Shown here: positions 1-25,516 of the stretch, one piece after another | Layout of the letters: every line of letters starts with the position of its first letter | Position numbering within the stretch: the first letter of the stretch is position 1 | Virus record (IMG/VR): IMGVR_UViG_3300028558_000219 | Span: 1 to 30,367 of that record | DNA length: 30,367 bases | Direction: 5' to 3' (one strand) | Origin: a virus | Made by a program: the position numbers and the translations under genes | The notes under the pieces: generated by a model | What the model was told of the DNA's origin: nothing | The model's input: the letters and a program-made list of their open reading frames with translations, nothing else | The model's database searches: none

Positions 1-919
1 GGATGTATCGGTAAGTGTAGCTGGCACTGCCGATAGCGTTTACTGATTCCTCGCCCTGAATTTCCAGAGCTAAGAATCCGTTAACGTCTACAGTGACACT
101 ATCCAAGTATGTGAACAACCCCAACGGGATTCCACCGGTGGTATACCCACCGGGAATAACGTTGATAATTAACCACGCTCTTATTGTCTTCCCTGTGATG
201 TCTGGAAAGCAAAGCTCAGTAAGAGTAGCGGTAGCTTTGGAGGACGAAGTGCCAAATGGAGGAACCACTGGAATTGTGCCTGCTTGAATAGGTGAGATCA
301 TCGTGTTGCCAAGCAAAGTAACTGCTCCGGTCAATCCAATGGCTCTTCCTGTCATCTTTGCTCCTGTTCCCAAGGATACAGAAGACAGTGCAAGAACATC
401 TCCTACCATTACTGCGCTGGCGTTGATTGTGGCAGAACTTCCTACCAACCAAATAACGTTTCGTGGCAACGCTCCGTTTGTCAACACCACAGTGGCACTG
501 GTATTGATCGTCAGTGTTGATCCAATCTGGAAAATGAAAACCGCGTTGGGATCGCCTTGTCCGTTTAGGGTAAGTACTCCACCTACGGACAAGTCCATAG
601 ACGTTGCTGACTTGTAGATGCCGGGGGTTAGTGTCTGCCCAGCCAAGTTGCCTACTACAGTTACGCCACCCGGCTGTGCTTGAAAGCCAGTGTATGCAGT
701 CATTGCGTCTGTCTGTGCAACGCTTGCCGTTGCATCAGTAATGTGCTGCACGTAAGGTGACTCTACGATACCGGGAGGAAATCCCGTGACGGAAGTACCG
801 GGGTACAACCCTAGGTTCCCTCCGTTTATGTCTGTCGCTCCTGAGTTGGTTACAGTAGAAGCGCCTAGCACTTCAAAGTTAACCGCAGACCCAAGGAGTT
901 GATCAATTGTTAAAGCCAT
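1..919 (-). CDS. Ice-binding-like (DUF3494) domain protein fused to a repeat C-terminal domain, 3' end cut by window
   Basis: I translated this by hand: 306 codons are visible and the C-terminus runs off the left edge. Residues about 9-210 carry the DUF3494/ice-binding-like pattern: the LGSAVNFEVLGASTVTNSG start, G-T-L-x-P-G-x-Y near 95-102, VFIFQIGSTL at 127-136, NVIWLVGSSAT at 154-164 and a TGAVTLLGN end. Known members fold as a beta-solenoid with an alongside helix; many bind ice, but others are adhesin-like. From about residue 233 a second domain starts (ELCFPDITGKTI) that is clearly related to the next gene upstream, 938-1315. The ATG is preceded by AAGGAG at good spacing. Position after the tail fibre and glycan genes suggests a virion appendage or decoration protein; an ice function is not implied. 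Confidence 0.8.
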   Translation of the reverse strand, partial: MALTIDQLLGSAVNFEVLGASTVTNSGATDINGGNLGLYPGTSVTGFPPGIVESPYVQHITDATASVAQTDAMTAYTGFQAQPGGVTVVGNLAGQTLTPGIYKSATSMDLSVGGVLTLNGQGDPNAVFIFQIGSTLTINTSATVVLTNGALPRNVIWLVGSSATINASAVMVGDVLALSSVSLGTGAKMTGRAIGLTGAVTLLGNTMISPIQAGTIPVVPPFGTSSSKATATLTELCFPDITGKTIRAWLIINVIPGGYTTGGIPLGLFTYLDSVTVDVNGFLALEIQGEESVNAIGSASYTYRYI

Positions 920-937
920 ATTTTCTCCTTAAGGGTA

Positions 938-1315
938 TTATCCAAGAGTTACAGTGCGATTCCAAACTGCGTGGAAGATCACACTTGAATCAACCAGCAG
1001 TGCTGTGGGCAACACAGCGCCGTTGCTCAGTTCTGTTCCTGCTGCAAAAATCTGTAGCTTGTCCGTAGATGGTACATATCGGAAAGTGTACAGGGTGCCG
1101 CTCACTGCGGTCTCATCGAATACGCGGCACTCTAAGAATCCGTTAAAATCGACGGTTCGCACATCTGCAAACGCGACCAGACCCATAGGGATTCCGCCTG
1201 TGGTGTAGTTCAGTCCGTACCCAAACAGAACCGTTCCCCACGCACCGATGGTCTTACCTGTGATGTCAGGAAAGCAAAGTTCCTGAAGTGAAATTCCTGC
1301 TACGATGTTAGACAT
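938..1315 (-). CDS. Putative virion appendage protein, stand-alone copy of the C-terminal domain of the DUF3494 protein
   Basis: 125 aa, probably all beta. Residues 12-80 (ELCFPDITGKTIGAW, YTTGGIP, TVDFNGFLECRVF, FRYV) match residues 235-306 of the following gene nearly motif for motif, and the DNA is also visibly similar, so the two arose by duplication or by fusion of this unit to a DUF3494 domain. The family itself I do not recognise. The gene ends 18 nt before the DUF3494 gene, which keeps its own ribosome-binding site in that gap. The start follows an AAGAGAAC ribosome-binding-like stretch. A short inverted repeat (GTCTA, ATA, TAGAC) lies in the 58-nt gap upstream. A role on the particle surface is inferred from context. 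Confidence 0.7.
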   Translation of the reverse strand: MSNIVAGISLQELCFPDITGKTIGAWGTVLFGYGLNYTTGGIPMGLVAFADVRTVDFNGFLECRVFDETAVSGTLYTFRYVPSTDKLQIFAAGTELSNGAVLPTALLVDSSVIFHAVWNRTVTLG

Positions 1316-1373: not shown

Positions 1374-1586
1374 TTACTGCAATCGCGGAAGTGGAAGTTT
1401 CCGCAAAACTTGTGATATGCCTCTTTTGGCAATGAGTCTTTCCCAGTTGCCTTTTACTGAGTTTTGCATGGCGTTTTCTGATGCCACGCGTTGCTGCTCT
1501 AAGAATGCTAAGTGCTCGTTCTTAGAGTTTTCTATTTCTTTTCTGCTTTGTTCATTCGATGTCTGAATCTCATCGTGAATTGACAT
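1374..1586 (-). CDS. Small charged helical protein
   Basis: 70 aa. The N-terminal 50 residues are rich in Glu, Gln, Lys, Asn and Ser with hydrophobic spacing compatible with one long helix or a coiled coil; the C-terminal 20 are basic and leucine-rich. It overlaps the end of the glycosyltransferase gene upstream by 17 nt and has AAAGAGC just before the ATG, which supports translation coupling. No family recognised. It could be a chaperone-like or anchoring accessory of the neighbouring appendage proteins, but nothing in the sequence proves this. Confidence 0.5.
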   Translation of the reverse strand: MSIHDEIQTSNEQSRKEIENSKNEHLAFLEQQRVASENAMQNSVKGNWERLIAKRGISQVLRKLPLPRLQ

Positions 1587-2271
1587 GCTCTTTGAATACC
1601 TTTCTCATCTCAGCTACTATGCGCTCGTCTGGTGTGCATCTGTGTCCATTCCAGTTGAGGTATATACAGTACGCCGTTGCTGTGCTTAAGTCCGGCACTA
1701 TATTTGGAAGTCTAGTGCGAGGAGGTGCTCGTAATGCTCTGGGTTTGTTAGGTACGAACTCTGACCTTTGCCCAGTGTACATTATGTATCGTGCCTCGTG
1801 GTGGAGTACTATACCTGCTTTGGATAGTACGCTGGTCACCCATGCTTCATCGTTGTTGTCCACTGGCAAAGTCGCATCTGCTACAAGCTGCATAGAGCGC
1901 CGACTCATCCAATAGGAAAATCCAAACGGCACAGGGTACTCTCGTATGTCATTTCTACGCCCTGTAAAGTCATAGTTTTGAAACCCAGACAAAAACTGCA
2001 CAGGGTTAATAACTACATCGTCGTCTAGCTTTACAACGTAGTCGTAGCCTTGCTCCAAAGACCACCGCACAATACTTTGCACTTTGCTAGGCAAGCCTTC
2101 GTAGGAGTCGTCGCAGTCAAGGAATACTTCGTCGTCCTTTGGGGGCCTATCCGATGGTCCGAAGAAGAACTTAACATCTGCTCCTTGAACCAGTGATAGC
2201 CACGTCTCACGTATGCACTGCTGATGCAATGCGTGTGCGTGGCAAGTTACGACGGCTATCAAAATCTTCAC
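1570..2271 (-). CDS. GT31-like (galactosyltransferase/fringe-type) glycosyltransferase
   Basis: 233 aa from a GTG start that overlaps the stop of the preceding gene as GTGA, with AGGAG 8 nt upstream; longer in-frame starts lack this signal. The N-terminus (VKILIAVVTC, then IRETW at 20-24) and the block KVQSIVRWSLE...YDYVVKLDDDVVIN (63-89) are the hallmarks of beta-1,3-glycosyltransferases of family GT31, with the metal-binding DDD at 83-85 intact. The family transfers Gal, GlcNAc or GalNAc from UDP-sugars. It is the last transferase of the glycan cassette and is related to the N-terminal half of the two-domain enzyme at 8411-9721. The acceptor is unknown. Confidence 0.8.
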   Translation of the reverse strand: MKILIAVVTCHAHALHQQCIRETWLSLVQGADVKFFFGPSDRPPKDDEVFLDCDDSYEGLPSKVQSIVRWSLEQGYDYVVKLDDDVVINPVQFLSGFQNYDFTGRRNDIREYPVPFGFSYWMSRRSMQLVADATLPVDNNDEAWVTSVLSKAGIVLHHEARYIMYTGQRSEFVPNKPRALRAPPRTRLPNIVPDLSTATAYCIYLNWNGHRCTPDERIVAEMRKVFKEHVNSR

Positions 2272-3032
2272 CGAATTCTCCTGAATCGTATTGATGGTTC
2301 GACTGGTACTCTCTGCTGCTCCGGTGTATAGGGCTGGTCTAACGTCATAGAAGTCTCTGTGTCTATCCATGCTTCCATTCCCCACTTCTTACGGAACTTT
2401 TCTGCTCCTGTTGTGCAATCGTTTCCGGGTCCGGTTCGCGTAAACGTACTGGCCGCGTGCCTGTGTTCCACACTTACCTTAGAGGTGACTGCTAGCATGT
2501 AGCCTGCTTGTCGTACGCGGTAGTTGTAGTCGGAATCGTCACTGCCGTATGAACCTCCAAATGCTGGGTCCATGTAGCCAATCTTTTCTATCACTTCTCT
2601 TTTGATGTACGTGCATATCAAAGCTAAGCGTTGACTGGAGTACGTAACCCCTTCTAGCTTTGGGTTGGTTTGTAGGATGTTTCCTGCTGCTCCTACTATA
2701 CGTGGGGACAACATTCCTATCTTCGGGTCTGAATATGCTACTTCTTGCAGCAACTCCCATGTGTTTGGTTGTAGGAACCGTACGTCGTCTCCGCAGTATA
2801 GTATGTCACTGTCGGACGCGGCAGCTTGCCATGCTTGATTGGCGTTTCCGGGGTTGCTAAATACTGGCGGTCCTTGTAGACATGTCCACATAGGCCCAGT
2901 TGGCATGACGATAGCGGACCCATCCCGTACGAACACTTTTGGAATGTCTGGTAAATTCTTATCGGCACTCTCCACAAACCCATCAAAGATGTCTGGGAAC
3001 TTTCCCAGCACCGCTACGGTCACTGGGCGCAT
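2268..3032 (-). CDS. GT2-like glycosyltransferase
   Basis: 254 aa. A GT-A fold is suggested by the nucleotide-sugar binding acidic motif in ILYCGDDVRFL (77-87; GDD 81-83) and by a later acidic patch YGSDDSDY (162-169) followed by YRVRQAGY and a conserved-looking VEHRHAAS at 188-195, an arrangement typical of family 2 rhamnosyl- or related transferases where the second acidic motif carries the catalytic base. The ATG follows GAGGAGGGACT, and the gene overlaps the ColD-like gene upstream by 13 nt and the GT31-like gene downstream by 4 nt, so all three are translationally coupled. Donor and acceptor cannot be read from the sequence. Confidence 0.8.
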   Translation of the reverse strand: MRPVTVAVLGKFPDIFDGFVESADKNLPDIPKVFVRDGSAIVMPTGPMWTCLQGPPVFSNPGNANQAWQAAASDSDILYCGDDVRFLQPNTWELLQEVAYSDPKIGMLSPRIVGAAGNILQTNPKLEGVTYSSQRLALICTYIKREVIEKIGYMDPAFGGSYGSDDSDYNYRVRQAGYMLAVTSKVSVEHRHAASTFTRTGPGNDCTTGAEKFRKKWGMEAWIDTETSMTLDQPYTPEQQRVPVEPSIRFRRIR

Positions 3033-4183
3033 AGTCCCTCCTCGATGGTGTCTGCAACGAAGAACATGTCCTCGTCTTCTAGACCCTGATGCATTCCGAT
3101 GAAGGCACCTTGCTTCTCTAAGTAACTAGCCACTGGGTATTTCTCTGCCATGCCGGGGAATAGTCTCTTGTACACAGGTTGGCTAAGCAATGGAAACATG
3201 AAGCGCGTCTCTATGCCTTTCTGTTCTAGGTGCAGCAGTAGCTTGTCACGATCTACGCCCTCTTTGCAGACAAATGGGTACATCATGTACGAGTGGTCGT
3301 AACCTTCAGGTGTGAACGGCAGTTGCAACCTGTCTTGGAGGTGCACAAGGCTGGCAGATAAAAGCCATGCGTTGTGTCTGCGCTTTTGTATGTTCTCTCT
3401 CCATCTCTCTAGTTCAGACAGGGCGATTGCAGCTTCTATCTCAGTGCATCGATATGAGTAGCCTACGCGGTCGAATTTATAACGACGCTCTATCATGTCT
3501 TTGCTGATCTTGTCATCGTCATCGATGCTGGTGTAAATACTGTCTCTACCATGCGCCATTAGGCTGCGGCACACTGTGGCGTACACGTCGTGGTTAGTAG
3601 TTACTAAACCTCCGACTCCACCTACAATGAGATGCGCAACGTACGTACTGAAGCACGCCATGTCTCCGTAGGAGCCTACAGACTTACCGTTGATACCTGC
3701 AAACATTGTTTCGCAAGAGTCTTCAATAACGCTCAGTCCATAGTAGCGTGCAATGGACATAACTCTGGTCATGTTAGCTGGCAGTCCGAACAGGTGCACA
3801 GGCATGATTGCTCTGGTTCTGCTTGTCACTTTCTCTGCGATCTTATCTGGGTTGATATTGAACGTAAGCGGGTCAACATCCACAAAAACCGGAGTAAGGT
3901 TATTCTGCAGAACCACATTAGACGTTGCGATAAACGTGATCGCCGGGACAAGTACTTCATCTCCGTCTTCATAGTGGTGCCGTTCCTTTAGTGCAGCCAA
4001 CGCTATCTGCAACGCGGACGTTCCGCTGTTACAAAATACTCCGTGGTTGCATCCATGAAGTTTAGAGAAGTCCTGTTCGAACGTCTCTGTGTACTTCCCT
4101 TTTGATAGCCTATTGTTGTCTAGGCAGTCGTTGACGTACTTCTTTCCCATTTCGCTGATTGATAGTTGTCCCAAGGTTATCAT
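3020..4183 (-). CDS. ColD-like PLP-dependent 3-dehydratase of the DegT/DnrJ/EryC1 family (Lys replaced by His)
   Basis: 387 aa from an ATG preceded by AGGAG and the recurring ACTCAG box. Fold-type I aminotransferase features: SGTSA (53-57) for the cofactor phosphate, IEDSCE with Asp155 facing the PLP nitrogen. At the place where sugar aminotransferases have the Schiff-base Lys, the sequence reads STYVAHLIVGGVGG, so residue 184 is His. In this family Lys-to-His marks the 3-dehydratases, such as GDP-4-keto-6-deoxy-D-mannose 3-dehydratase (ColD, colitose pathway) and the E1 dehydrase of CDP-sugars. The long insert after GRD (212-214) and the following VGYSYRCTEIEAAI also resemble ColD. GMD encoded nearby makes the ColD substrate. 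Inferred role: C3 deoxygenation towards GDP-colitose or similar; an aminotransferase is unlikely without the Lys. Confidence 0.8.
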   Translation of the reverse strand: MITLGQLSISEMGKKYVNDCLDNNRLSKGKYTETFEQDFSKLHGCNHGVFCNSGTSALQIALAALKERHHYEDGDEVLVPAITFIATSNVVLQNNLTPVFVDVDPLTFNINPDKIAEKVTSRTRAIMPVHLFGLPANMTRVMSIARYYGLSVIEDSCETMFAGINGKSVGSYGDMACFSTYVAHLIVGGVGGLVTTNHDVYATVCRSLMAHGRDSIYTSIDDDDKISKDMIERRYKFDRVGYSYRCTEIEAAIALSELERWRENIQKRRHNAWLLSASLVHLQDRLQLPFTPEGYDHSYMMYPFVCKEGVDRDKLLLHLEQKGIETRFMFPLLSQPVYKRLFPGMAEKYPVASYLEKQGAFIGMHQGLEDEDMFFVADTIEEGLCAQ

Positions 4184-4985
4184 TGCTGAGTCGTCTCCTG
4201 ATTTCCTCGTCCACACGCGCATGTATGTCCGTGTACTTCATAGCCTCGTGCAGGTTGTGTTCAACAGCCTCTGCTCGTGACTGATAAAACTCTGGTGTTA
4301 GACCCTCTAGTATCCTTGACAGGTCTTCGTAGGTATCAAAAGAAAGAATCCCTCTTGCGTCAAAGAACTCTCCTACGTTTGGTGCACCCCAGTATATGGG
4401 GATAGTGCGCGACACTAGACAGTCGATTAGTTTCTCTGTTATCCAGTTTGTGCGCTTCCCGTTTTCCATTACGATTGAGTACTGGTAAGGGTAGAGCAGA
4501 GGACGTTTGCATTCCAATTGCGGCTGAGCCTCTGGCATGCCGCCGCCAGCCGAGGACATGTACTTAGTTACTTCCAACTGTCCTATACTTGCTGGTAGTC
4601 TTTTGTAAATTTCGTGTCTAAAATAGTGCCCAGCACACATTGTCTTGGAACTGGTTAGGTAGGATACTGCAAAGCGTTTCTTTGATGCATCACAGTGATC
4701 CTGAGGGTTTGATGCCCAGCGGCATGTGCCAAAGATGAACTTCACTGCGTTGTTTGGGCAACCGTCTAGCACTCTTTGGTTCCAAGCTAGTATCAGGTCA
4801 TAGAACGTGTGGCTGTCAATCAACTGCTGTTCTGTAGGAACTATGTCTGGAGGCTCTAGCTGTATGAAAACCCTGTACGGTGAGTCATCTGTAAAATCAA
4901 ACGTATCAGTTGCTATAGACACAGGAGCTTCCTGCTCACCGAATCCATAACCTAAGATTGGTCCTACTATTTTTGGCTTGAACAT
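4110..4985 (-). CDS. GT10 alpha-1,3-fucosyltransferase-like protein
   Basis: 291 aa. The GT10 signature is clear: YSIVMENGKRTNWITEKLID (169-188) followed by RTIPIYWGAP and EFF. In this family the E-N and T-E-K residues bind GDP-fucose, and the enzymes make alpha-1,3/4-fucosyl linkages as in Lewis structures. Some members may use GDP-colitose or other GDP-6-deoxysugars. The gene starts inside the end of the GDP-fucose synthase-like gene (19-nt overlap) and its own last 74 nt overlap the start of the ColD-like gene; its basic, Gln/Arg-rich C-terminal tail lies in that overlap and may have been gained there. Soluble, no membrane helix seen. Confidence 0.85.
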   Translation of the reverse strand: MFKPKIVGPILGYGFGEQEAPVSIATDTFDFTDDSPYRVFIQLEPPDIVPTEQQLIDSHTFYDLILAWNQRVLDGCPNNAVKFIFGTCRWASNPQDHCDASKKRFAVSYLTSSKTMCAGHYFRHEIYKRLPASIGQLEVTKYMSSAGGGMPEAQPQLECKRPLLYPYQYSIVMENGKRTNWITEKLIDCLVSRTIPIYWGAPNVGEFFDARGILSFDTYEDLSRILEGLTPEFYQSRAEAVEHNLHEAMKYTDIHARVDEEIRRRLSNDNLGTTINQRNGKEVRQRLPRQQ

Positions 4986-5908
4986 TCATTCTCCATGTAC
5001 CAATCTATTGTTCTTTGCAGACCTTGCCACAGCGGAGTTTTATACTTAAATCCAAACTGCTCTGCCTTGGTGGTGTCGAACAATCTTCTAGGCTGTCCCT
5101 CTGGTTTAGAAGTGTCCCATTTCACTAACCCTTGGTATCCAATTAGTGATGTCAGTAAACTCACAATGCGCCCTACCGTCACTTCGTCTCCAGTGGCTAT
5201 ATTCACAGGCTCTGCACCGTGATAAGACTCTGTAGCAAGCACTATGGCTTCTGCACAATCTTCTACGTACAGGAACTCTCGGCTGGCTGAACCTGCGCCC
5301 CACACGGTTAGGTCTGTACCGTCTCTCTTTGCTTCTAGGCACTTTCGTATAAGAGATGGTATGACGTGCGAGCGTGCCGTATCGAAGCTGTCCCTAGGTC
5401 CGTACATGTTGGCTGGTACCAACCCTATGCAGTTCATGTCGTACTGCTTGCGGTACGCCTTACACTGCTCCAGAAGAACTCGTTTAGCTATGCCGTACGG
5501 TGCATTTGTCTCTTCTGGGTATCCGCTCCACAAATCTTCTTCTCGCGCTGGTAGGCTTACGTTCAATGGATATGCGCAAACGCTGCTGATCGCTACGAAC
5601 TTGACCACTCCGTGTGTCTTGGCTCCTTCTAGAACCTCGGAATTGATTGCTAAGTTGTCGTATAGGTAGCTTGCTGGGCTGGCGGAACAAGATTGTATTC
5701 CTCCGCAGTGCGCTGCTGCATGTATCACTACGTCCGGCTGTAATGTCCTGTACATCCTAGTTACATCGTTATGTCTGCGTAGGTCATAGTCTTTTGACTC
5801 TGGAACCGCTACGCTCAGGCATCCGTGCTCATACAGTTTATCTACTATGTGCGATCCTAAGAATCCTGCGCCTCCGGTGACGCACACTCTTTTACGTTCT
5901 AAGTTCAT
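4967..5908 (-). CDS. fcl: GDP-L-fucose synthase-like epimerase/reductase (Fcl/ColC family)
   Basis: 313 aa, near the 321 aa of E. coli Fcl. An extended SDR with a [11 protein letters not shown] nucleotide loop (10-20), Cys111 in SSVCAYP, the Tyr138-x3-Lys142 pair (YGIAK) and His181 in SHVIPSL; these correspond to the Cys/His epimerase pair and Tyr/Lys reductase pair of GDP-fucose synthase. It converts GDP-4-keto-6-deoxymannose to GDP-L-fucose with NADPH. ColC of the colitose pathway belongs to the same family, so with the ColD-like neighbour the natural substrate could be the 3-deoxy intermediate. The start at 5908 is chosen because it has GCGAGGA before the ATG and removes a non-family N-terminal extension. 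Confidence 0.88.
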
Positions 5909-6863
5909 TCCTCGCCTCACGTAAGTCTGAGTCAACCATCTCTTCAATGAGTTCTTTAAACCTAACCTTAGGTGACCATCCGAGTAGTCTCTTTGCTTTG
6001 GAAGCATCTCCTTGAAGCAAATCAACCTCTGTCGGTCTGTAGTACCTTGGGTCTACTCCTACGTAGTCGCTCCAGTCCAATCCTACGCGCTTAAAAGCTA
6101 CGTCCAGAAGGTCTCGTATACTGTGTGTCTCTCCTGTGGCAATCACAAAGTCATCTGGGCATTGGTGCTGTAGCATTAGCCACATGGCTTCTACGTAATC
6201 CTTGGCGTGTCCCCAGTCTCGTTTTGCATCTAGATTTCCAAGAGTAATGACCTTTTGTAACCCTAAAGAAATTCTGGCAGCGGCTTTGGTCACTTTGTGT
6301 GTGACAAATGTTTCACCCCGGCGAGGACTCTCATGGTTGAACAGTATGCCGTTACTGGCAAACATGCCTTGTTCTCGTGCGTTCACTGTGTACCAAAATG
6401 CGAACTGCTTAGCGATCCCATAGGGACTACGTGGGTAAAAAGGAGTAGTTTCCTTCTGTGGAGTTTCCAGCACCTTGCCGAATAGTTCTGAAGAGCTAGC
6501 TTGGTAGTATCTAGACTCTGGGCAGTGTGCTTTTACTGCCTCTAGGAGCCTCAGGGTTCCCATGGCGTCCACGTCAGACGTGTACTCGGGACAATCAAAG
6601 GACACGCGCACATGACTCTGAGCACCTAGGTTGTAGATTTCATCGGGCTTTACCTTGGACAGCAAAGCGCCTAGGGCACTGCCGTCACTCAGGTCACCAA
6701 AGTGCAGGTGCAACTGCTCAAAGATGTGGTCGATACGCGCGGTGTTCAACGACGAAGAGCGACGTATAATTCCGTGCACTTCATACCCTTTGCTAAGCAA
6801 CAACTCTGACAGGTACGATCCATCTTGTCCCGTTATGCCAGTTACTAGCGCCTTTTTAGACAT
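5892..6863 (-). CDS. gmd: GDP-mannose 4,6-dehydratase
   Basis: 323 aa. Extended [15 protein letters not shown] (7-18) for [16 protein letters not shown] at 78-89, SSSELFG at 123-129, Tyr148-x3-Lys152 in SPYGIAK, and the GMD-specific [15 protein letters not shown] (176-190) and [14 protein letters not shown] near 275-290. It converts host GDP-D-mannose to GDP-4-keto-6-deoxy-D-mannose, the branch point to GDP-fucose, GDP-colitose, rhamnose and perosamine. ATG with AGAGGAAACAGG upstream; it overlaps the synthase gene downstream by 17 nt. GMD is known from large DNA viruses and some phages; a full length and intact catalytic set suggest it is active. Confidence 0.93.
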
Positions 6864-7027
6864 CCTGTTTCCTCTTGAGTCTTGCACACTGCATGCATGA
6901 GGTAATATTCGTCGTCTCTGAGTTCTATGTGCATGTCGTCTGTGCCTTCTACTATCTTAGAGCAAAGAACACAGCGCCTACCGTACAGCTTCCTGTACAG
7001 TATTAATGCCATCTTTTTCCATTTCAT
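6845..7027 (-). CDS. Small zinc-binding-like protein between GT11 and GMD
   Basis: 60 aa. Starts at an ATG that overlaps the stop of the fucosyltransferase gene as ATGA and ends 19 nt inside the GMD gene, so it is embedded in the cassette operon. CVLC in the first half and a His-x2-Cys (HAVC) about 26 residues later could hold a zinc ion as in small treble-clef or ribbon proteins. Family not recognised; it may be a folding or regulatory accessory, or merely a carried gene. Confidence 0.55.
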
Positions 7028-7752
7028 ATCCGAGTCCACCGCTCAGGGACTATATCCCGTGCGTCTTCGTTGCCCGTCCTAAACCACTGCTTAGGAGCAA
7101 CTACCTTGCCACGCTTATCTGCTCCAAGCCATGCACCCCACCACGAAAAGCTACTGTTGGCAATTACGGCGCTGTGACATAGGCTCATAAGCCACAAGTC
7201 TTCGTGTGGTGTGCATATGACGCGCGTCGTAGGGTAAGGTATGGGTAGGTTGTAAGCTGCATCATCGGAGAACACAAAGAAATGTGGATTGGTAAATTGC
7301 TTTGCAGCTTCTTGGTAATACTCCACAGGAAGAACTCCATGTCTCTGAGCGGCCCACGTCAGGTAGTCTCCCCGGCGCACATGCAGCATGACGCTGTTGG
7401 GTGTGCCTATTATAACCTCTGCATACCTTTTAGCAAGGGTGCTTGGTTCTTCTTTTAATCTAAACTCCAACAGTAGAGTGTGTGTTAGGTGTTTGAAGTA
7501 CCTTTCACATTGCCAATACCCGTTCTGCACGCTTGGGTCTTCCACTTCTGGGTGTGGGTCATACGGAAGTCCACGCTCACTGATCCACCTACCCTCTGGC
7601 TTAGTAGTGTATGACAACTTCGTGTTGAATCGGTCTAGGTGACATCCGTACTGGTTGCAGTTATTGAATAGGCTTGCATTCGGCAAAGTCCTAGCGTACG
7701 CATATTGGAACAGGGTATTTCCTATCCCACCTTGCAGATTAACGGTAATCAT
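7024..7752 (-). CDS. GT11 alpha-1,2-fucosyltransferase
   Basis: 242 aa, a little shorter than typical bacterial members (about 280-300). All GT11 landmarks are present: the N-terminal GGIGNTLFQYAYAR (8-21), the GDP-fucose binding HVRRGDYL (124-131), and the late block LMSLCHSAVIANSSFSWWGA (188-207). The family moves L-fucose from GDP-fucose to the O2 of galactose. Start at 7752: the initiation region reads AGGACTCAGAATG, containing the phage's recurring GACTCAGAA motif overlapping the start codon. With GT10 it provides two different fucosyl linkages in one phage. Confidence 0.9.
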   Translation of the reverse strand: MITVNLQGGIGNTLFQYAYARTLPNASLFNNCNQYGCHLDRFNTKLSYTTKPEGRWISERGLPYDPHPEVEDPSVQNGYWQCERYFKHLTHTLLLEFRLKEEPSTLAKRYAEVIIGTPNSVMLHVRRGDYLTWAAQRHGVLPVEYYQEAAKQFTNPHFFVFSDDAAYNLPIPYPTTRVICTPHEDLWLMSLCHSAVIANSSFSWWGAWLGADKRGKVVAPKQWFRTGNEDARDIVPERWTRI

Positions 7753-7760
7753 TCTGAGTC

Positions 7761-8510
7761 CTAGCTGTTGATCGGGCTGGGCCACGTCACGTGAGACCAT
7801 GTGTGGTCAGCGTGGTCGCGGTAGTATTGCTCTTCTTCTGAAAATGGCTTGGAGATGTACCACGGAGTGTGCTCCACTACGTAGGGCAGGTCTAAGCGGA
7901 TGTTGTTCCACTCTGGTGTGATCCACGGTGAACGTGCTTTGTAAACTGCAAAGGTGGTGTCTATGGGAGCGTTGAACCCTCTCTCACACACCCTCTTCCA
8001 GAACACACCTTCACCTTCCCATCCTTTTCCGTCTCCATGCGTAATGAAGTCTCTACTCAGGTCGGGTATGTTGTCTAGGCGTAACCCCGGTCCCACTTTT
8101 CCGCTCTCTGGGTGCTTTGCAAGAAGTTTGCTGCACCTCTCTATCAAATCTTTTGGGCAGCAGTCGCTGGGTACGATATCAGCGTCGGTCACTACGTACG
8201 GAGTGCTCTGCACCAGATGCATTCCCTGCGTCCAGAACGACCACGGTCCTAGGTTCGGTTGGAACTTTACCGCCGTTATGTCGAACTCTTTGTACCACTC
8301 CAGAAGAGGAGGATACGTGGAGCCATTGTCCAGAATAGTAATGTTGTAAGTCCCGGCCTCTCGCAACCACTTCACCAATTTCATGATGCTGCTCAGTCGG
8401 TCACGATTGTTTATGAAGACTGGAATCTGTGCTGCGGGTGTTTCCTGTACGTCCACGTTGCTTGTGGCACATACCTGAATCGCGCTCCTGATAAGGCGGC
8501 TCTTAACCAC
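7761..8510 (-). CDS. GT-A glycosyltransferase (family 2-like)
   Basis: Up to 249 aa. The domain starts at IPVFINNRDRLSSI (about 29-42) and shows ILDNGSTYPPLLEWY and VVTDADIVPS with the DxD-type metal site (DAD). This pattern is found in small GT2-like enzymes with a glycosyltransferase A fold. The GTG start at 8510 is preceded by GAGAGGA and makes a 100-nt overlap with the gene upstream; a closer GTG further in (start of VDVQETPAAQ) has a weaker site, so the first 20 residues are uncertain. The C-terminus ends a few bases before the GT11 gene. Acceptor unknown. Confidence 0.75.
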   Translation of the reverse strand: MVKSRLIRSAIQVCATSNVDVQETPAAQIPVFINNRDRLSSIMKLVKWLREAGTYNITILDNGSTYPPLLEWYKEFDITAVKFQPNLGPWSFWTQGMHLVQSTPYVVTDADIVPSDCCPKDLIERCSKLLAKHPESGKVGPGLRLDNIPDLSRDFITHGDGKGWEGEGVFWKRVCERGFNAPIDTTFAVYKARSPWITPEWNNIRLDLPYVVEHTPWYISKPFSEEEQYYRDHADHTWSHVTWPSPINS

Positions 8511-9721
8511 AGGTTTTGATCCTCTCCGGGGTAGGGTTCAGTTTTAAACCCTCCTACCTTGTCAAACACACTGCGTCTCATCAATACAGTCACTGGTATG
8601 TAATTGTCCGATTGTACTGCAGCGTAATCAAAGTCTCTTGTCTTCCACGTTTTGGTAAATCCACTCTCTTTGCAATCTGAGTAGATGATGTCTGCGCTGC
8701 CACTGTAAGAAATTAGCGTAGATAGGTGCTCTGGATTCAGCAGATCGTCGTCGTCTACGAACGCTAGCCACTCATACGATGGGTCTAGGTTTTTCACTAT
8801 CCTGTTACGTGTGGTGGCGGCACCTTCTGCTTTGTCATCTACGCCTATAGCGTGATACACATTTCCTTTCCAGTCTTGGGAAAGAACAGATGCCTTGCAT
8901 TCGTCCAGCAATGCGTACCTACTGGATACAGTAGGAGTAATGACTGCAATTTTTTCTACTCTGGAGACAGAGAAGGAGTTTAACCACGCCTGATGCTTGC
9001 TTAACAGCCATCTATAGTCGTATTGGGAAGGCTCTCCTTCTTTTACTGGCCTAGACAAGTGCTGAGTGATCTTATCGTTTGTTGCTTCTGGTCCTGAAGA
9101 GTAGACATCCTCTTCATATCTAATGTCGTGATGTTTGGTGAACAACTTGTTGTTTTTTACAAGATCGCCTGTCCACTTGTCCTCAGCCCATGTGTCTATG
9201 CTCTTTATAACCAAGGGTTCTCTATGCAATCTGGGCCTCTGTATAGCCCGTGAGTATGGAGACTTTGGCACATCAAACCTTATGATGGTGTCCTCTGTTG
9301 GTATACGAGCGTTTACAAGTTCCTCGCATGCGCGGCTGCTTAGCCAGTACCCTGTGCCGCCACAGCAATAAGGTCCGGTATCGGGCCTGCATGCAAAGTT
9401 ACCAGAGTAGTCGTAGTCTTCAAAGCCGCTTTTCACTAATCGACTAGGGCACACATAGGTGTCTGGATAGCACTTGAAGACGTAGTTGTAACTTCTCTCC
9501 AATGCCCATCTATGCATTGCCCTAGCTTTGTATGTGACGTTCTTGTAATCGTCTGGTGCATCCAGAAGCACCTCGTCCTCTTGCGTTACGCTGCTTCCTT
9601 GCCCCATGAATATTTTGTAGTCGGCATCTTTTACCAAAGGTAACCACGTATCACGCATTGCTTGGTTGTTTCCGTTGGTTCTGAACAATTCGCAACTAAG
9701 GACTGCTATGAGAACTTTCAT
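8411..9721 (-). CDS. Two-domain glycosyltransferase: GT31-like plus GT2
   Basis: 436 aa, starting at the ATG of MKVLIAVLSC; an earlier in-frame TTG is not needed. Residues 1-150 resemble C1GalT/fringe-type GT31 enzymes: MRDTW (22-26), DEVLLDAPDDY, KARAMHRWALE (65-75), FKCYPDTYV (82-90) and GGTGYWLSSRACEEL (121-135). Where active GT31 enzymes have DDD before T-Y-V, this one has YPD, so metal binding may be lost or changed. Residues 258-436 are a GT2 domain: IAVITPTVSSRY, AATTRNRI, WLAFVDDDDLLNP with DDDD at 323-326, and a PGEDQNLWLRA acidic motif near the C-terminus. Inference: GT2 is the active half, the other half recognises the acceptor. Paralogous to the GT31 gene at 1570-2271. Confidence 0.82.
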   Translation of the reverse strand: MKVLIAVLSCELFRTNGNNQAMRDTWLPLVKDADYKIFMGQGSSVTQEDEVLLDAPDDYKNVTYKARAMHRWALERSYNYVFKCYPDTYVCPSRLVKSGFEDYDYSGNFACRPDTGPYCCGGTGYWLSSRACEELVNARIPTEDTIIRFDVPKSPYSRAIQRPRLHREPLVIKSIDTWAEDKWTGDLVKNNKLFTKHHDIRYEEDVYSSGPEATNDKITQHLSRPVKEGEPSQYDYRWLLSKHQAWLNSFSVSRVEKIAVITPTVSSRYALLDECKASVLSQDWKGNVYHAIGVDDKAEGAATTRNRIVKNLDPSYEWLAFVDDDDLLNPEHLSTLISYSGSADIIYSDCKESGFTKTWKTRDFDYAAVQSDNYIPVTVLMRRSVFDKVGGFKTEPYPGEDQNLWLRAALSGARFRYVPQATWTYRKHPQHRFQSS

Positions 9722-10022
9722 TTTCGTCTTTATACTCCTCGGTGTCGGCAACCTTATCTGCTGCCTTCTTGAACATGTTGGTCAGTTTCATTACACCGTA
9801 TGGGGCCGTTGAGAACGTAGCAAGCGCTCCTATGATGAGTGGAAGACCACCGATCCACGTTTGTAGCTTGTCGGCAGGCTGGTTCATCATATGACGTACC
9901 ATCCACCATATTAGTGCCATGGATGATACTGATAGCCATGCACTAACAACTCTGGAAGAGCTAGGGCCGTGCTCATCGCTGAAGGCCCTGCCCAACCATG
10001 ACCAAACTTTTTTCAAATCCAT
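9696..10022 (-). CDS. Small membrane protein, holin candidate
   Basis: 108 aa from an ATG one base after the stop of the fibre gene, with GGAGTGTAAT in front. Two hydrophobic segments are visible: about 27-44 (VVSAWLSVSSMALIWWMV) and about 55-78 (TWIGGLPLIIGALATFSTAP), followed by a highly charged, Lys/Asp/Glu-rich C-terminal tail. Two helices, small size and a charged tail fit class II holins, and its place after a tail-fibre gene fits lysis genes. No endolysin gene is seen in the window, so the call is only topological. Confidence 0.5.
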   Translation of the reverse strand: MDLKKVWSWLGRAFSDEHGPSSSRVVSAWLSVSSMALIWWMVRHMMNQPADKLQTWIGGLPLIIGALATFSTAPYGVMKLTNMFKKAADKVADTEEYKDENESSHSSP

Positions 10023-10023
10023 A

Positions 10024-12135
10024 TTACACTCCAAACAGTACAACAGGTGCGTACTGCGCGTTGGTATTGTCCAACGGAGTTAGAACACCTAGAGTAGCTG
10101 GAAGGGCATTTCCTGAAAGGGCATTTGCTGCTGTAGCAAAACGCGTGGGAGCAGTCTGAGGTGCGCTAATATCTAACCCGTTAAGCATTTGCTGGAACCA
10201 TGTCTCCAGATCATGACAGATGACAGAGCCTCCGGTTGTGCCGTTAGAACCCCAAGCAAACCAGTACACTCCAGCAGGCAGTACTACAGGAGACCCAAGG
10301 GTCACTGATCGATACTTTTGACTAGCAGTCGTATCGAACGCCGCTGCTCCTGCGTTCACTAGCAGAGTAGTTCCTGCCGCATTGTAAATCCCTGCTGTGA
10401 AGTTTTGAGTAACTCCATTTCCTGTGACCACAAATGCTGCTGCTCGTGATATAGTCCAAGCAGCGTTCAGCATAACCTGTACTGCGTACACCGTGCCGTT
10501 TGTGCTGATGTTATGCCCCGTATCATTAAGTATGGGGGCTAGGTCTTTTGCTCCTAGGAACCAACCTTGATTTGATGTCTTGAACGCTACAGGCGCTCCA
10601 AATGCAGACCACCCTGTGTTTCCGGTGCCAGTTTCTTTAACATAGAAAGCTGTGCCCGTCGATCCATCTCGTCTAGAGCAGATTGACCCAACATTTGCTG
10701 CCAGCGATGCTTCTGGTGTACCTGTGACGCTGTACCATCCGTCATGCAGAGGTATAGGTCTGGTAAGGGAATTTACATCTCCGTGCCCTATGAAACTTCT
10801 TCCAGATGTACTGTCATCAACGACTATACTAGCGGTCTTCGCCATGCCTATGAACGCGTAGCTGTCTGAAGTGACCGCGCTGTCCAGAAGGTATGACGAT
10901 ATTCCAGTAGCATGAGCGACTGTAATTCCATTGAAGTTCAACCCAGCAGCTATGCTGGTGTAGTTTGTTACTGTGCCTCCACCTGCTGGAGTGTCTATGC
11001 CAAATCCAAAGAAATTGTCAATAGTACCTCTCCATGTTGGGAGATATTCTAATATTCCTAAAAGATTTGTTAGGTGCGTACCTGTGTCTACCAGACTTCT
11101 CAACTTTAGCAAGTTAAGTTGCGGGGCGGTTACAGCCGCTCCTGACACGGACCCGAATATTTCTAAAGCATCCATATGGTACCCAACTGTTTTGGTGTTT
11201 GCTGTTACAGTCAACCCTGCGTTGATCTGTAAACCTGACAGGTTGTTACCATTGGCTCCATCGTTTTCAAAGTACACGTTCAGAGCTTTTCTTTTTGTAT
11301 TGATGCCTGTTCCAGAAATGTCCTGCATGACCACTTGGTTCTGCGACACTGCTATTCCTGCGTCGTTTAGCAGATATGCGCTTAGTGCCGATGCGGGGTC
11401 GGTGCTTGCAATCTTTGTGAATCTAGTAAAGTAGTTTACTCCATCAGTGGTGATAAGTGCAGATTGGTACTGACCGACCACTATGGTAGGCCAATTGTTG
11501 ATGGTAGAAACCGCTGGGGTGATGGTGACTTGTCCAAGCCCTAGGTTCTCGACGTAGCAGTACCATCCACTGGAGAAGTTCCCGGCTGTACCTGCCTGCG
11601 CTATGCTGACGGCTACGCTGGCGGAGTTTGAGAAAGTTATGTACTTTCCACGGTCTCCATCTTGAATAGCGTATGTAGTTCCTACCTGTGCATTTTGCAC
11701 AAGTGCCTGAGACGGCGCTCCGAATATGGTAACTCCACCTGATCCATCAGAAGACACTGACACAGTTCCTGAACCCTTTAGGTTGAGAAGAGACTGTACA
11801 GTGTTGGGAGTTCCGTTTGTCTGTAAAATAATAGAAGAGCTTGACCCTGATCCACCTACCGCTTGGTCTGGGTATACTTGCTGTATTCTTCCACCGCCCA
11901 CTAGGACTACTGTGTACGTGCCTGCTGCGCAGTAAGCAAAGGCATGACCGAAGCCGTCACATGTCAATGGCTGCGTGATAGACGTAGCTGCTCCAGAGTC
12001 CGCAAATAGAGGAATGAGGGGACTAGGAGGAATGGTGCTGGATACGGCAGGCTGCGAACAAATATAAACCAGTGTCCCGGCAGCTGCAGGACCTATTGTG
12101 GAGCGAACCCACGTATCAAACCTTGCTAATGGCAT
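10024..12135 (-). CDS. Tail fibre / receptor-binding appendage protein
   Basis: 703 aa. Rich in Gly, Ala, Ser, Thr and Asn with many short beta-like repeats, no long hydrophobic helix and almost no Cys, typical of trimeric tail fibres. The N-terminus (RFDTWVRSTIGPAAAGTLVYICSQPA, then DGFGHAFAYCAAGTYTVV near 60-77) looks like the particle-attachment domain found in many phage fibre proteins with a D-x-x-G-x-x-x-x-Y-x-x-x-G-x-Y/T-V pattern. The middle has a YAIQDGDRGKYITFSNSASVAVS-like beta module (shown here only in part), the end a beta-sandwich-like tail. AAGGAG six nt before the ATG. It may carry the glycan made by the cassette downstream, or bind host glycans. Confidence 0.7.
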   Translation of the reverse strand: MPLARFDTWVRSTIGPAAAGTLVYICSQPAVSSTIPPSPLIPLFADSGAATSITQPLTCDGFGHAFAYCAAGTYTVVLVGGGRIQQVYPDQAVGGSGSSSSIILQTNGTPNTVQSLLNLKGSGTVSVSSDGSGGVTIFGAPSQALVQNAQVGTTYAIQDGDRGKYITFSNSASVAVSIAQAGTAGNFSSGWYCYVENLGLGQVTITPAVSTINNWPTIVVGQYQSALITTDGVNYFTRFTKIASTDPASALSAYLLNDAGIAVSQNQVVMQDISGTGINTKRKALNVYFENDGANGNNLSGLQINAGLTVTANTKTVGYHMDALEIFGSVSGAAVTAPQLNLLKLRSLVDTGTHLTNLLGILEYLPTWRGTIDNFFGFGIDTPAGGGTVTNYTSIAAGLNFNGITVAHATGISSYLLDSAVTSDSYAFIGMAKTASIVVDDSTSGRSFIGHGDVNSLTRPIPLHDGWYSVTGTPEASLAANVGSICSRRDGSTGTAFYVKETGTGNTGWSAFGAPVAFKTSNQGWFLGAKDLAPILNDTGHNISTNGTVYAVQVMLNAAWTISRAAAFVVTGNGVTQNFTAGIYNAAGTTLLVNAGAAAFDTTASQKYRSVTLGSPVVLPAGVYWFAWGSNGTTGGSVICHDLETWFQQMLNGLDISAPQTAPTRFATAANALSGNALPATLGVLTPLDNTNAQYAPVVLFGV

Positions 12136-12257
12136 TGTATCTCCTTAGGGTTAACCCCATACCCACCCACACACGCACTTAAGCACATGTGACAGGTGGC
12201 TCTTTCGTAACTCTCGGCCACACTGGCCGCACATTCTCATCCACATGGAACACCTTC
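12136..12257 (-). other. Gap between connector-like gene and tail fibre
   Basis: About 120 nt without an open frame of note. It holds the fibre gene's AAGGAG site at its left end and C-rich sequence on the plus strand; a short palindromic GGCC centre is visible near 12228. I see no convincing terminator or promoter. Confidence 0.4.
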
Positions 12258-13109
12258 TTACCACGAGAGGAACGTAAATTCGTTGTTTAGATCGCCGTCA
12301 CTATTTCCAAACGGTATGCGTGCGTAGTCTTGATGTTGCATGCGGCGTACATTAGCATTCTTCAATTGGAACATTTGCGTTCTGGATTCTGCCAGCAAAT
12401 CCGCAAGCCCCGGTGACCCTAACATGCGAGCGTACTTTACTGCTGTCATATACGCTACAGCATCTGTACAGTCCATAACCGGAATGTACGTTGAAGAGAA
12501 GTCTAAATTAGGACTGAAAAACTGTGGCAAGGAGCAGTAGTATCGCAGGCGAATGTCTCGTTGCTGCGTAGCTCCGTGGAAGTTAAGGTTGTTGTTTCTC
12601 CACTCCCACTCTCTCAAGCATGTGCCTTGCTGCCAGCTACTAAGACCCCCAGACGGTGCATCCATTAGGCAGAAAGGATCGTTGCTTCCCGTTGCTCGTT
12701 CCCATAGCTTAGTGGGATAAAGCATGTCCTCAGGAAGTCGTAGATTTGGCCATAGCTGCACACCATCGAAGTAACCTTCGGGCGTTAGGATAGTTTGAAT
12801 AGCTGGATCAACAGCGCCGGGACCACCTTGGGTTGGGCTGTTGATTATTGGCAGACCTGTCAGTATGACGTTATCTTTGATGAGTACCGGATCGCCTACG
12901 TTACGTAGCTCGCGGTATAGTTCTCGAATGGAACTGTTGAGGAAGGGCTGTGTGAAAGGTGAAATCGTTGGATCGTTCGTGAAGATTTGACCTTCTCCCG
13001 GCGTGTCCGTTTGACCTGCTTGGGTATCGTTTACCAAACTGCGTACTAGGTCCATTACTGTTGCAAGACTTGTAGTTTGCTGCCCTACATTAAGGGTTGG
13101 TGAAGACAT
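12258..13109 (-). CDS. Putative head-tail connector / virion protein
   Basis: 283 aa. N-terminal helix-rich part (SSIRELYRELRNVGDPVLIKDNVI about 58-82), central Trp/Pro-rich segment, and a C-terminal helical block (DAVAYMTAVKYARMLGSPGLADLLAESRTQMFQLK, described in pieces) such as seen in adaptor proteins that dock under the portal. No exact family recognised. It lies after the capsid region and directly before the tail fibre, fitting an adaptor or nozzle protein of a short-tailed phage. ATG with GAGAGGAATGCACA upstream. The preceding HNH endonuclease gene overlaps its first 25 nt, meaning that gene was inserted right at its start without breaking it. Confidence 0.55.
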   Translation of the reverse strand: MSSPTLNVGQQTTSLATVMDLVRSLVNDTQAGQTDTPGEGQIFTNDPTISPFTQPFLNSSIRELYRELRNVGDPVLIKDNVILTGLPIINSPTQGGPGAVDPAIQTILTPEGYFDGVQLWPNLRLPEDMLYPTKLWERATGSNDPFCLMDAPSGGLSSWQQGTCLREWEWRNNNLNFHGATQQRDIRLRYYCSLPQFFSPNLDFSSTYIPVMDCTDAVAYMTAVKYARMLGSPGLADLLAESRTQMFQLKNANVRRMQHQDYARIPFGNSDGDLNNEFTFLSW

Positions 13110-13693: not shown

Positions 13694-13781
13694 TATATTC
13701 CTCCGCAAAGGTTTGTGAGGCGCATTGCGGTGCGCCCCACCACTGCTTGGGAGCTACCCAAAGCAGGTACAAACTAAACAG

Positions 13782-13847: not shown

Positions 13848-13886
13848 AAGATTGGTACAGAAATTACATGGCACCCTTGCCCACCC

Positions 13887-20861: not shown

Positions 20862-23462
20862 TTACTGTGCTATCGGTTGCTTCAGTGCTTCTGGGATTGC
20901 TTTACCAGCAATCTTATGGTCGAGCGCTGTGCCTGCTGCTTGGGCGAACATGTCAGGTGTTGCATTGATGTTCATCTTAGCCAGAGCTTGCACTGCAATC
21001 GGTGGAGGCATCTTAGATACATCGACACTCAGTGACTCGGATGGTGGTTTACCCGGAGGCATGTTAGCCGCTGCAATCTTCTTAGCCATAGCTACGTGTT
21101 CTGCCCAGTGTATGTGGACGTTTTCATAGCCTGCACTTTGTTCTTCTGTTCCGTGCTTGAACTTCTGTCCCTCCGTAGAGTTCATCCATTCAAAGCACTC
21201 GTTAGCTTCTACTGCGTGATTTTCGCTCTCATCTTGTGCAACAGGTATAGTGCTCACCATCTTTGGTAGAGAGTTCATAGCCTGTTGTATTTGTGAGACC
21301 ATAGCGGCGGCTTGAGGCGGTACTTGTTCGCCTTGTGCCGATGCGGCTGTCATGCCCATTGTTACCTTTTCCAAACCTGCACTCATTTGTAAGAGTTGTG
21401 GATTCGGCATAGGTGCAGCGCGTAGCAAGAGTTCAAACTCACTACGTTGTTTAGTGACTGATGACGCCCCAGCTACTTTGTAGTTTTTCATACGAAGTGC
21501 TTTTGACGTTTCCTCTAAGTTCGATGGGCTGAATACCCATTGTGCAAGAGGTGACGCAGGTGCAAGGTTTGCCTTATCAATCAGCGTCATTATTTTTACT
21601 GCTTTTTCTTCTTCAGTCTCTGGCAATGATGGATTGCTCTCTGGATAACATAGTACGTTACCTCCAAGAAGGTTCGCAGTGTTGACTGTTACGTTTCCAC
21701 GTCCCTGTATATTCTGCGATATTTCTTTTCCATCTCTGCATTCTGCTGCGCACTTAACGGCTTGTCTAGCTGCGGTTGCGAATAGGTCTTGAATGTTATT
21801 CCAAGGGCAACCTACGCGCTGCAGTGCTTGATCACGCTGTATTACTGCGTTTCCTACTGTGTTCTCCCCTGTAGCATTGCCGAACAATGATGGCAGTGCT
21901 CCAGATATCTCTTCGGAAAGAGTAGTTATGAACCACTTGATAAATTCAGGCAGCGCAGGCTGGTGCTGAGGAGTAGGCTCAACCATTATGTATTGAGACT
22001 CTGCCGTCAGTCCGGGCTGAGGTATAAATGGTCCGATGCTTCCGGGGATGTTTGGTTCTTTCTTAATTGCATCCATATCGAAAGCTTCAGAGTTCATCCA
22101 CTTCTTAGGTATGGTTCTCTTGAAGAAGTCATCTAACAAATCAACCCAGTCGTTTATTCGCTTCTGGACAGATATAAGTGCAGTGCCCATAGCTCTACGA
22201 TTTTGTCCCTTACCTGCGGTTGGGTGGGCGATTGCTAGGTGGTCATCCATCTTCTCATTACGAGAAAAGGCATACTCTTGTCCGGCGCGAGCCAGCAGCA
22301 CTCCGTCTGGAAATGCTTCTAACAGTTCTGCTTTTGCTTCATCGCCTACAGAGGGATCAAGAAACATTGCAGGACGCATCCACGTGTACTTAACAGTGGT
22401 GTGTCGTGACAATGAGTCACCAGTGACGTACGCTCCAAGTACAGCTTGGCGCACGTTCTCTCTTGCGATGCGATCAAGTTGTGTTGCTGATTGTCCATCG
22501 GTGCCGGGACTAATCTTACTTGCGATCCACGGGAACATACCACGAACCATTGCAACGTCATAGTCCAACATCAACTGCACAAACTGCATTTCAGAAAAAT
22601 TGTCTACGGAAATAGGAACCTTATGATCCAACTTGCCGTGAGCAGTAGTGACTTCCATACCAAGTGGTTTCTTAGAACTGTTACCAACTCCTGCGGAGTC
22701 CAACAATCCGTCTATATCTCCACCTGTGTCTGATACTGATTCTGTTACTTGTAAAAAGTCTTCTTGTCCATCTTGTCCAGTAGGTTTGTCGTCTGGAGGA
22801 TTTAAGATGTCGTCAGGAACGGTAGGAGTAGTCTTGTCTTCTTCGAATCCGTACTTCTGTCCGTCCAGTTGATAGCGCGTCCATAGAAGGACACGATCTT
22901 CGTTCCAGAAAATACGAGCGCACTGCACCAAAAGGTCATGGAGCTTGTTGTTGCGTGACCAAATGTCTTTGAATCTATCGGCTTCTTCGGCTGCAATCTT
23001 GTCCGGTGCCCACTCTGGGTTTACAGGAGAAAATTCTACCTTCGGTACTTCTCTTGATAGTGCCGATACAATGATGTCACCTTTGGGTCCATACACGTTG
23101 GTGTCGTATATGCTATTGTGGTTTCTATCATTGGCTTTCTTACCTTGGCCTCCACCGGGGAGTTCCCATCCTCCACGCTTGCCTCTAAGTAAATGCTGAT
23201 ATCCTCTTTCAAAGTGCAGAGCTTCCCACGTCTGCTCGACTTCCATGCGTCGTGCAGCTACGTCTGTTTTTGTGCAGATGTCATCAAGGGATATCAAAGT
23301 ACCTCGTGCTATGTCGCTCAACTCAGCAAACGGCTCTGGAGAATGAGGGAACGGAGCGTACACACCAAGGGGACTGTTATTAGGGCTTTCAGGCTGAGCT
23401 TCGGACCCGCCTTTTGCGCCTTCTGTCCCCGCCCCTACAACTTCTGAAACATCGTCTGCCAT
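20862..23462 (-). CDS. Portal protein
   Basis: 866 aa. Features of large podovirus-type portals: an N-terminal acidic tail, then a helical entry (SLDDICTKTDVAARRMEVEQTWEALHFERGYQ, in part), the Asn-rich YDTNVYGPKGDIIVSALSREVPKVEF at about 118-143, a wing region with FWNEDRVLLWTRYQLDGQKYG, and a core ISVQKRINDWVDLLDDFF followed by GALPSLFGNATGENTVGNAVIQ (about 545-566), which matches the stem/crown approach seen in P22-like portals. The C-terminal 200 residues are helical (SLPKMVSTIPVAQDES, HIHWAEHVAMAKKIAAAN), possibly a barrel extension. Upstream ATAGGAGTCCCAA. It lies between terminase and scaffold, as expected. Twelve copies would form the DNA channel at one vertex. Confidence 0.85.
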   Translation of the reverse strand: MADDVSEVVGAGTEGAKGGSEAQPESPNNSPLGVYAPFPHSPEPFAELSDIARGTLISLDDICTKTDVAARRMEVEQTWEALHFERGYQHLLRGKRGGWELPGGGQGKKANDRNHNSIYDTNVYGPKGDIIVSALSREVPKVEFSPVNPEWAPDKIAAEEADRFKDIWSRNNKLHDLLVQCARIFWNEDRVLLWTRYQLDGQKYGFEEDKTTPTVPDDILNPPDDKPTGQDGQEDFLQVTESVSDTGGDIDGLLDSAGVGNSSKKPLGMEVTTAHGKLDHKVPISVDNFSEMQFVQLMLDYDVAMVRGMFPWIASKISPGTDGQSATQLDRIARENVRQAVLGAYVTGDSLSRHTTVKYTWMRPAMFLDPSVGDEAKAELLEAFPDGVLLARAGQEYAFSRNEKMDDHLAIAHPTAGKGQNRRAMGTALISVQKRINDWVDLLDDFFKRTIPKKWMNSEAFDMDAIKKEPNIPGSIGPFIPQPGLTAESQYIMVEPTPQHQPALPEFIKWFITTLSEEISGALPSLFGNATGENTVGNAVIQRDQALQRVGCPWNNIQDLFATAARQAVKCAAECRDGKEISQNIQGRGNVTVNTANLLGGNVLCYPESNPSLPETEEEKAVKIMTLIDKANLAPASPLAQWVFSPSNLEETSKALRMKNYKVAGASSVTKQRSEFELLLRAAPMPNPQLLQMSAGLEKVTMGMTAASAQGEQVPPQAAAMVSQIQQAMNSLPKMVSTIPVAQDESENHAVEANECFEWMNSTEGQKFKHGTEEQSAGYENVHIHWAEHVAMAKKIAAANMPPGKPPSESLSVDVSKMPPPIAVQALAKMNINATPDMFAQAAGTALDHKIAGKAIPEALKQPIAQ

Positions 23463-25150: not shown

Positions 25151-25516
25151 TTATACCTTGGCGGCTGTTGCCGCTTCCTCTTCCAATTCCTTTGCGATCC
25201 TAGCTTCGTGCTCTTCTTGTTCTGCCTGCCAACTCGTCTTGACTTGGGGAGACTGGAAGCTAGCGAAGCTTGGTTTTTCAGGTTTCTTTGCAGTGGGATC
25301 AATGCCTACGCGCCGATTTATATTCAGTTCGTATATACTGATTTTGGTCTGAAGAAACGCCTTCTCCGTTCGAAGCTCAGCGATCACCTGATCCTTGTCT
25401 TGTCGTACTCTTTGCAGGTCTTCACGTAGAAGAAGTAAATCTTTTTCTAAACGATCAACCAGCGACGAGTAGAACAGGTCATCCCAGAAACCTCTTATGC
25501 TAGATGCGATGCTCAT
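25151..25516 (-). CDS. Coiled-coil protein after the large terminase
   Basis: 121 aa from an ATG overlapping the terminase stop as ATGA. An N-terminal amphipathic piece (SIASSIRGFWDDLFYSSL) leads into a coiled coil of about 45 residues (VDRLEKDLLLLREDLQRV, QVIAELRTEKAFLQTKI), then a Pro/Lys linker and a Glu/Ala-rich helix at the end. Such a shape fits an oligomeric packaging accessory; unknown family. Confidence 0.65.
   Translation of the reverse strand: MSIASSIRGFWDDLFYSSLVDRLEKDLLLLREDLQRVRQDKDQVIAELRTEKAFLQTKISIYELNINRRVGIDPTAKKPEKPSFASFQSPQVKTSWQAEQEEHEARIAKELEEEAATAAKV

Follow-up and report, generated by a model that had tools for sequence, protein, structure and literature searches.

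The Ig-like domains of tailed phages are mobile and are often found on a fraction of subunits (Fraser et al., cited in PMC5009743 and PMC6669499), and both they and carbohydrate-binding modules are described on proteins of the tail, capsid, neck and baseplate, often added by programmed frameshifting (PMC5009743; PMC6669499). In the 936 lactococcal phages, carbohydrate-binding modules are carried by MTP/TpeX, Dit and the neck passage structure, and some of them have been shown to bind the host (PMC6669499). The DUF3494 domain (PF11999, Ice_binding) is the domain of the ice-binding proteins EfcIBP (6eio) and SfIBP (6bg8). Two columns of its b-face track ice environments, and the strong ice binder SfIBP is distinguished by a column 2 that consists of alanine only (PMC12337378); DUF3494 proteins are also known from the tropics and from hot springs, and a variety of binding substrates has been proposed for them (PMC7783341). 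PF11999 genes on viral contigs of Arctic vOTUs have been read as genes for host cryoprotection (PMC11515562). The papers found in the open-access literature gave no account of phage PF11999 as anything other than a host-cryoprotection gene of this kind, and no paper joining ice binding with a tail sheath.

The window analyzed here, meaning the whole of a linear virus record of 30,367 bases with its main genes on the minus strand, carries two adjoining genes that place DUF3494 in a different setting (Table 1). Gene B encodes a small module by itself, and gene A encodes the same module behind a DUF3494 domain. The preliminary description of this DNA had reported the module as occurring twice in this way, and the observation is borne out: the copies are about 50% identical, the motifs ELCFPDITGKTI, TTGGIP and NGFL are all common to genes A and B, and tblastn within the window genome matched the module to gene B at 52% identity (E 3.8e-18). 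That description had also made its DUF3494 assignment answerable to a profile search, and in Pfam gene A matched PF11999 with 169.3 bits against a cut-off of 28.7, covering profile positions 1-207 of 208; its best PDB match was the bacterial antifreeze protein 6eio (E 7.4e-47). Gene B had no match in Pfam, PHROG or PDB. Gene A starts at the ATG at 919 and encodes at least 306 amino acids, with the final 45 or so residues of the module missing, and an exact-match scan for an overlapping contig that would complete it returned 0 matches. Gene A was also considered as a programmed-frameshift extension of gene B, a possibility that is ruled out because it is a separate open reading frame with its own ATG and an AAGGAG site 5 nt before it.

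Table 1. Features of the window, with positions, strand and the evidence for each
Feature	Position	Strand	Basis
Gene A: DUF3494 domain + C-terminal module	2..919	-	ORF and PF11999 (E 1.2e-49); 3' end lost at contig end
DUF3494 / PF11999 domain of gene A, residues 17-207	299..871	-	Pfam; beta-solenoid and capping helix from model of the L003 homologue
Module of gene A, residues 229-306, truncated	2..235	-	Paralogous to gene B, 51% identity over 76 aa, E 4.9e-18
Gene B: lone module, complete, 125 aa	938..1315	-	ORF; relatives of both forms aligned
AAGGAG Shine-Dalgarno-like site	925..930	-	5 nt ahead of gene A ATG (sequence)
Glycosyltransferase / GDP-mannose dehydratase / epimerase / aminotransferase cassette	1570..9751	-	Pfam; just upstream of gene B
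703-aa protein, probably fibre-like structural (from position and sequence look; matched to no family)	10024..12135	-	
Portal protein candidate	20862..23462	-	phrog_156 (E 0.0022)
Large terminase; start of structural gene run leading to A and B	25513..27192	-	phrog_979 (E 1.3e-21); PF03237

The gene order runs from the terminase through the portal candidate and unassigned genes to the glycosylation cassette, gene B and finally gene A. The cassette comprises Galactosyl_T-like, GT10 and GT11 glycosyltransferases, a GDP-mannose dehydratase, an epimerase and a DegT aminotransferase, a content that suggests glycosylation of the virion or of the host surface. Sugar genes, named by eye, also precede the module in L003, L012, L016 and L196-L198; the cassettes of the relatives lie in the same place and are related, with their order reshuffled. 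A second record, IMGVR_UViG_3300028800_000069 (82.7 kb), begins at window position 12932 and overlaps the window over 12932-30367 at 99.99% identity, so that the two are pieces of one phage population.

IMG/VR was scanned with gene A, the module and the domain as queries. A lone module followed by DUF3494 plus module, in the same order as in the window, was found in L003, L004, L005 and L016 (L017 being a copy), and because the order recurs in this way the A/B arrangement is confirmed as real and not a product of chance. One relative (L006) has the fused gene without the lone module, and four (L012 and L196-L198) have the module without DUF3494; the last three are more distant, have the terminase family of the window in common and a diverged module, and gave no PF11999 match. 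No relatives of the module were detected in the cellular genome collection. The simplest history would start from the lone module, which would then have been duplicated in tandem, one copy gaining DUF3494. Two genes past its fused gene, L004 encodes a match to a PHROG tail protein (8.3e-10). A very large protein of about 1,400-1,700 amino acids is encoded shortly downstream in L003, L005, L012, L016 and L196-L198, either directly after the locus or one or two small genes on, and as two open reading frames in L016; it had no Pfam, PHROG or phage match and could not be aligned with the giant proteins of L050 and L051. The split in L016 lies between 9435-10430 and 10443-14708, the first frame ending in an intein/Hint-like stretch that starts CFSAAVSVRTPEG and ends near DIAHN, and L010 4660-7653 is likewise intein-bearing in appearance.

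The structural results rest on an AlphaFold model of the fused protein of L003, a homologue 62% identical to the window copy. Its DUF3494 part has pLDDT block means above 90 over residues 11-210, and the solenoid aligns with 7bwy at Z 34.2 and an rmsd of 1.0 over 200 residues and with EfcIBP (6eio) at Z 34.1, the model being 51% identical to the latter over 207 residues. This confident solenoid is followed by a low-confidence linker and then by a poorly predicted module. Gene B modelled alone reached a mean pLDDT of 69.7; structurally that model came closest to the Dettilon tailspike in its C-terminal part, with Z 5.8 and an rmsd of 3.8 across 104 residues, a similarity too low to count, and the weaker rows, lectin- and CBM-like sandwiches among them, likewise fall below a meaningful level. 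No significant match for the module fold was obtained in PDB or BFVD, and the module of gene B may need an oligomer to fold. The DUF3494 part of gene A is of the same fold and family as EfcIBP and SfIBP with high confidence, but unlike them gene A is without a signal peptide, is joined to a phage-specific partner module and stands at the end of a run of structural genes.

The signal peptide bears directly on the published reading of such genes, by which a phage-made ice-binding protein would be an auxiliary product that shields the infected cell or its surroundings from freezing. In gene A the domain begins almost at the start methionine, with no hydrophobic segment ahead of it. Using a 14-mer of mean Kyte-Doolittle value of at least 1.8 as a crude stand-in for SignalP, a hydrophobic segment ahead of DUF3494 was found in 4 of 43 phage proteins against 75 of 78 cellular ones, the cellular set having been drawn from the 80 best matches of one scan and not at random. 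Two viral-labelled contigs, L032 and L037, both among these four, have clear hydrophobic N-termini, and their DUF3494 domains fall among the cellular rows; they may be host DNA or genuine secreted phage genes. In a tree of 52 domains, the window family and L007 form one group (99/99), and together with five Acidobacteria domains they make up a starred set (96/92), the other phage domains lying elsewhere; a larger FastTree tree needed 10 label changes. Phage branches are interleaved with cellular ones. The natural reading of these sequence trees is that there were several exchanges between cells and phages and that the window family has an acidobacterial link. Descent from, or sharing with, a cellular pool would suit host cryoprotection, as would the retention of the b-face columns and the interpretation given to the Arctic genes (PMC11515562). 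Those genes are of the same Pfam family and likewise lie on viral contigs; they are read as host cryoprotection, whereas the architecture of gene A argues for a structural protein, a comparison in which the three Arctic genes enter by description only. Host cryoprotection is quite unlikely for gene A, given the start of the protein with the domain and the phage-to-cell difference in hydrophobic segments, the fusion to a module without relatives in the cellular genome collection, the position of the secreted-looking L032 and L037 among cellular rows and the occurrence of DUF3494 inside the tail sheath of other phages.

The domain search of IMG/VR gave 43 viral DUF3494 loci, or 46 distinct proteins including the window. 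In L040, L044, L049, L152 and L154 the domain lies within the tail-sheath protein. Proteins annotated as tail sheaths in Tunturiibacter phage Tunturi_5 (8e-13), Myrna, Finch and others are matched by the C-terminal 391 amino acids of the L044 protein, and the annotated sheath matches for the region C-terminal to DUF3494 in L040, L044 and L049 include Mycobacterium, Rhodococcus, Gordonia and Eggerthella phages. DUF3494 is placed between two sheath segments, the N-terminal part also being common to the sheath proteins. It is present in five of the six sheath loci found; the sixth, L151, encodes a sheath that is the same but for lacking the domain (565 amino acids against 768 with DUF3494), and its tblastn match to the C-terminal part shows 90% identity. 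Elsewhere, a 2,616-residue protein of L058 combines Baseplate_J (5.7e-11) with two DUF3494 stretches, and the DUF3494 protein of L035 has a weak minor-tail PHROG match (5e-4), while most phage DUF3494 proteins had no family or PHROG match naming a virion part. Taken as a family, and not in the window itself, DUF3494 occurs on several different virion proteins, as an accessory display domain would, and it is dispensable among close relatives, both in L151 compared with the sheaths of L044, L040, L152 and L154 and in the lone modules of L012 and L196-L198. Searches of 50,697 phage records by tblastn with P0001, P0002 and the L007 domain detected no DUF3494, the low-complexity filter being on, which may hide Thr/Ser-rich sequence; nor was PF11999 matched in Synechococcus phage S-SKS1 (named in PMC11515562) or in Tunturi_5. 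In some phages DUF3494 is present in two or three copies, within a single protein or spread over adjoining genes (L042 5745-12611, L055, L035 and L058). In others the domain is interrupted by an insert and gives two profile matches (L011 5494-7176, L057 5769-7271 and L061 7719-9161), and the insert within the L011 domain resembles a second domain of the same protein.

The modular architecture proposed in the preliminary description is supported and proves much more general than the window alone. The same description took the locus for a virion appendage that would act as an adhesin or receptor binder; location on the virion has good support in part of the wider family, through the sheath insertion and Baseplate_J, and for A and B of the window it is suggested by gene position, the absent signal peptide and the tail gene near the fused gene of a relative. 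Binding of the primary host receptor did not find support. Were A and B alternative fibre tips, swapped between relatives as a host-range cassette, the variation of the locus among related phages (lone, paired or fused), the adjoining glycosyltransferase cassette and the weak resemblance in structure between the module and the C-terminal region of a tailspike would make sense; this is nevertheless an unlikely reading, as DUF3494 is present in or absent from otherwise very similar sheaths and sits on different structural proteins, as accessory domains do and a primary receptor binder does not. An accessory binding role fits better than primary receptor binding because DUF3494 can be absent from the sheath.

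The best explanation of the locus, and one that we consider fairly probable, is that DUF3494 is a mobile accessory binding domain displayed on virions by means of paralogues with and without it. Such pairs were sought by matching the part of each protein outside DUF3494 against the genes beside it. Adjacent DUF3494-less paralogues were found in five unrelated module families, those of the window, L007, L060, L028 and L038. The domain was inserted inside a module of the 138-aa type in L007 and near residue 57-79 of a 240-aa protein in L060, and a search for an annotated relative of the L060 paralogue found none. Immediate-neighbour paralogues accompany 11 of 44 DUF3494 genes against 15 of 462 other genes (p 1.8e-6), the 11 including L040 and L058, whose DUF3494-less neighbour shares only a small part; with each family counted once, a fairer count since the rows are related, the figure is 5 of 38 (p 0.007). 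The L007 and L038 pairs have, by eye, signal-peptide-like N-termini, so that signal peptides are probably present in these two of the five module families and, because of these starts, export of their products from the host is possible. A wider proposal, which we put forward tentatively and regard as rather doubtful, is that phages repeatedly evolve plus/minus DUF3494 subunit pairs as a gene-pair alternative to frameshifting for setting copy number, the resulting array adhering to ice or to ordered soil polysaccharide.

The assumed ice-face columns of the window copy, placed by sequence pattern and not on a structure, read V/T/S/S/A and T/T/T/S/T; they approach EfcIBP, with its Ser/Thr/Ala, and differ from SfIBP, whose column is alanine only, in having one alanine in five in the first. 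The Thr/Ser/Ala columns are equally conserved in phage and cellular domains, which suggests that the flat face is still used in some way, and because of this equal conservation ice or another repetitive surface may be the ligand. A displayed array that bound ice might anchor particles in cold soil or lessen their freeze damage there, and EfcIBP is both the closest solved relative and the one that the window columns resemble. Given the single alanine in five where SfIBP column 2 has alanine only, and the presence of DUF3494 in warm habitats as well, we regard ice binding by the virion as improbable. The view in the preliminary description that the domain is an adhesin rather than an antifreeze is plausible and is the one preferred here.

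Under the preferred reading of an accessory domain displayed through paired subunits, gene B would supply a small structural module, and gene A would have arisen from it by tandem duplication and gained the DUF3494 beta-solenoid at its N-terminus. Both products would be made late, alongside other virion proteins, and would assemble through their common module so that the solenoid points outward on some subunits only. The solenoid would then have an accessory role in binding, in which the flat Thr/Ser/Ala face gives a weak hold strengthened by avidity on a repetitive surface. The ligand would most likely be a polysaccharide, belonging either to the envelope of the host or to the surrounding matrix, and holding to such a surface would raise encounter or adsorption.

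With the Ig-like domains the likeness lies in a mobile, accessory, beta-rich domain that is found on different virion proteins and is sometimes absent; DUF3494 differs in its beta-solenoid fold, and the share of subunits bearing it would come from a second, paralogous gene that has a start and a ribosome site to itself rather than from a frameshift. In the 936 phages, too, binding modules of an accessory kind have been attached to more than one component of the virion, partly as a tail-protein extension. There the module family is another one, TpeX uses a frameshift and binding was shown by experiment, whereas for DUF3494 it is proposed. It seems that a known fold is seen here in an apparently undescribed setting, in which phage structural proteins would bear it as a display domain that recurs and is mobile, often through plus/minus pairs. 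Phage PF11999 genes have so far been counted as host frost protection; should many of them prove to be display domains of the virion, these counts need revision, with DUF3494 gaining a role as a general surface-binding fold. Plus/minus pairs, if real, would be a second route besides frameshifting to placing an extra domain on a fraction of subunits. The sheaths with and without DUF3494 offer a ready-made natural comparison.

Some further features of the structural region may be recorded. Within the structural run of the window, positions 15871-16590 encode a protein of 239 amino acids that contains a GroES/Cpn10 domain (PF00166, 6.1e-8). Genes that by eye look like HNH or GIY-YIG homing endonucleases are scattered through the structural region (window 30113-30367; L003 12942-13316; L016 8426-9130 and 14788-15417), and one of them directly follows the DUF3494 gene of L016.
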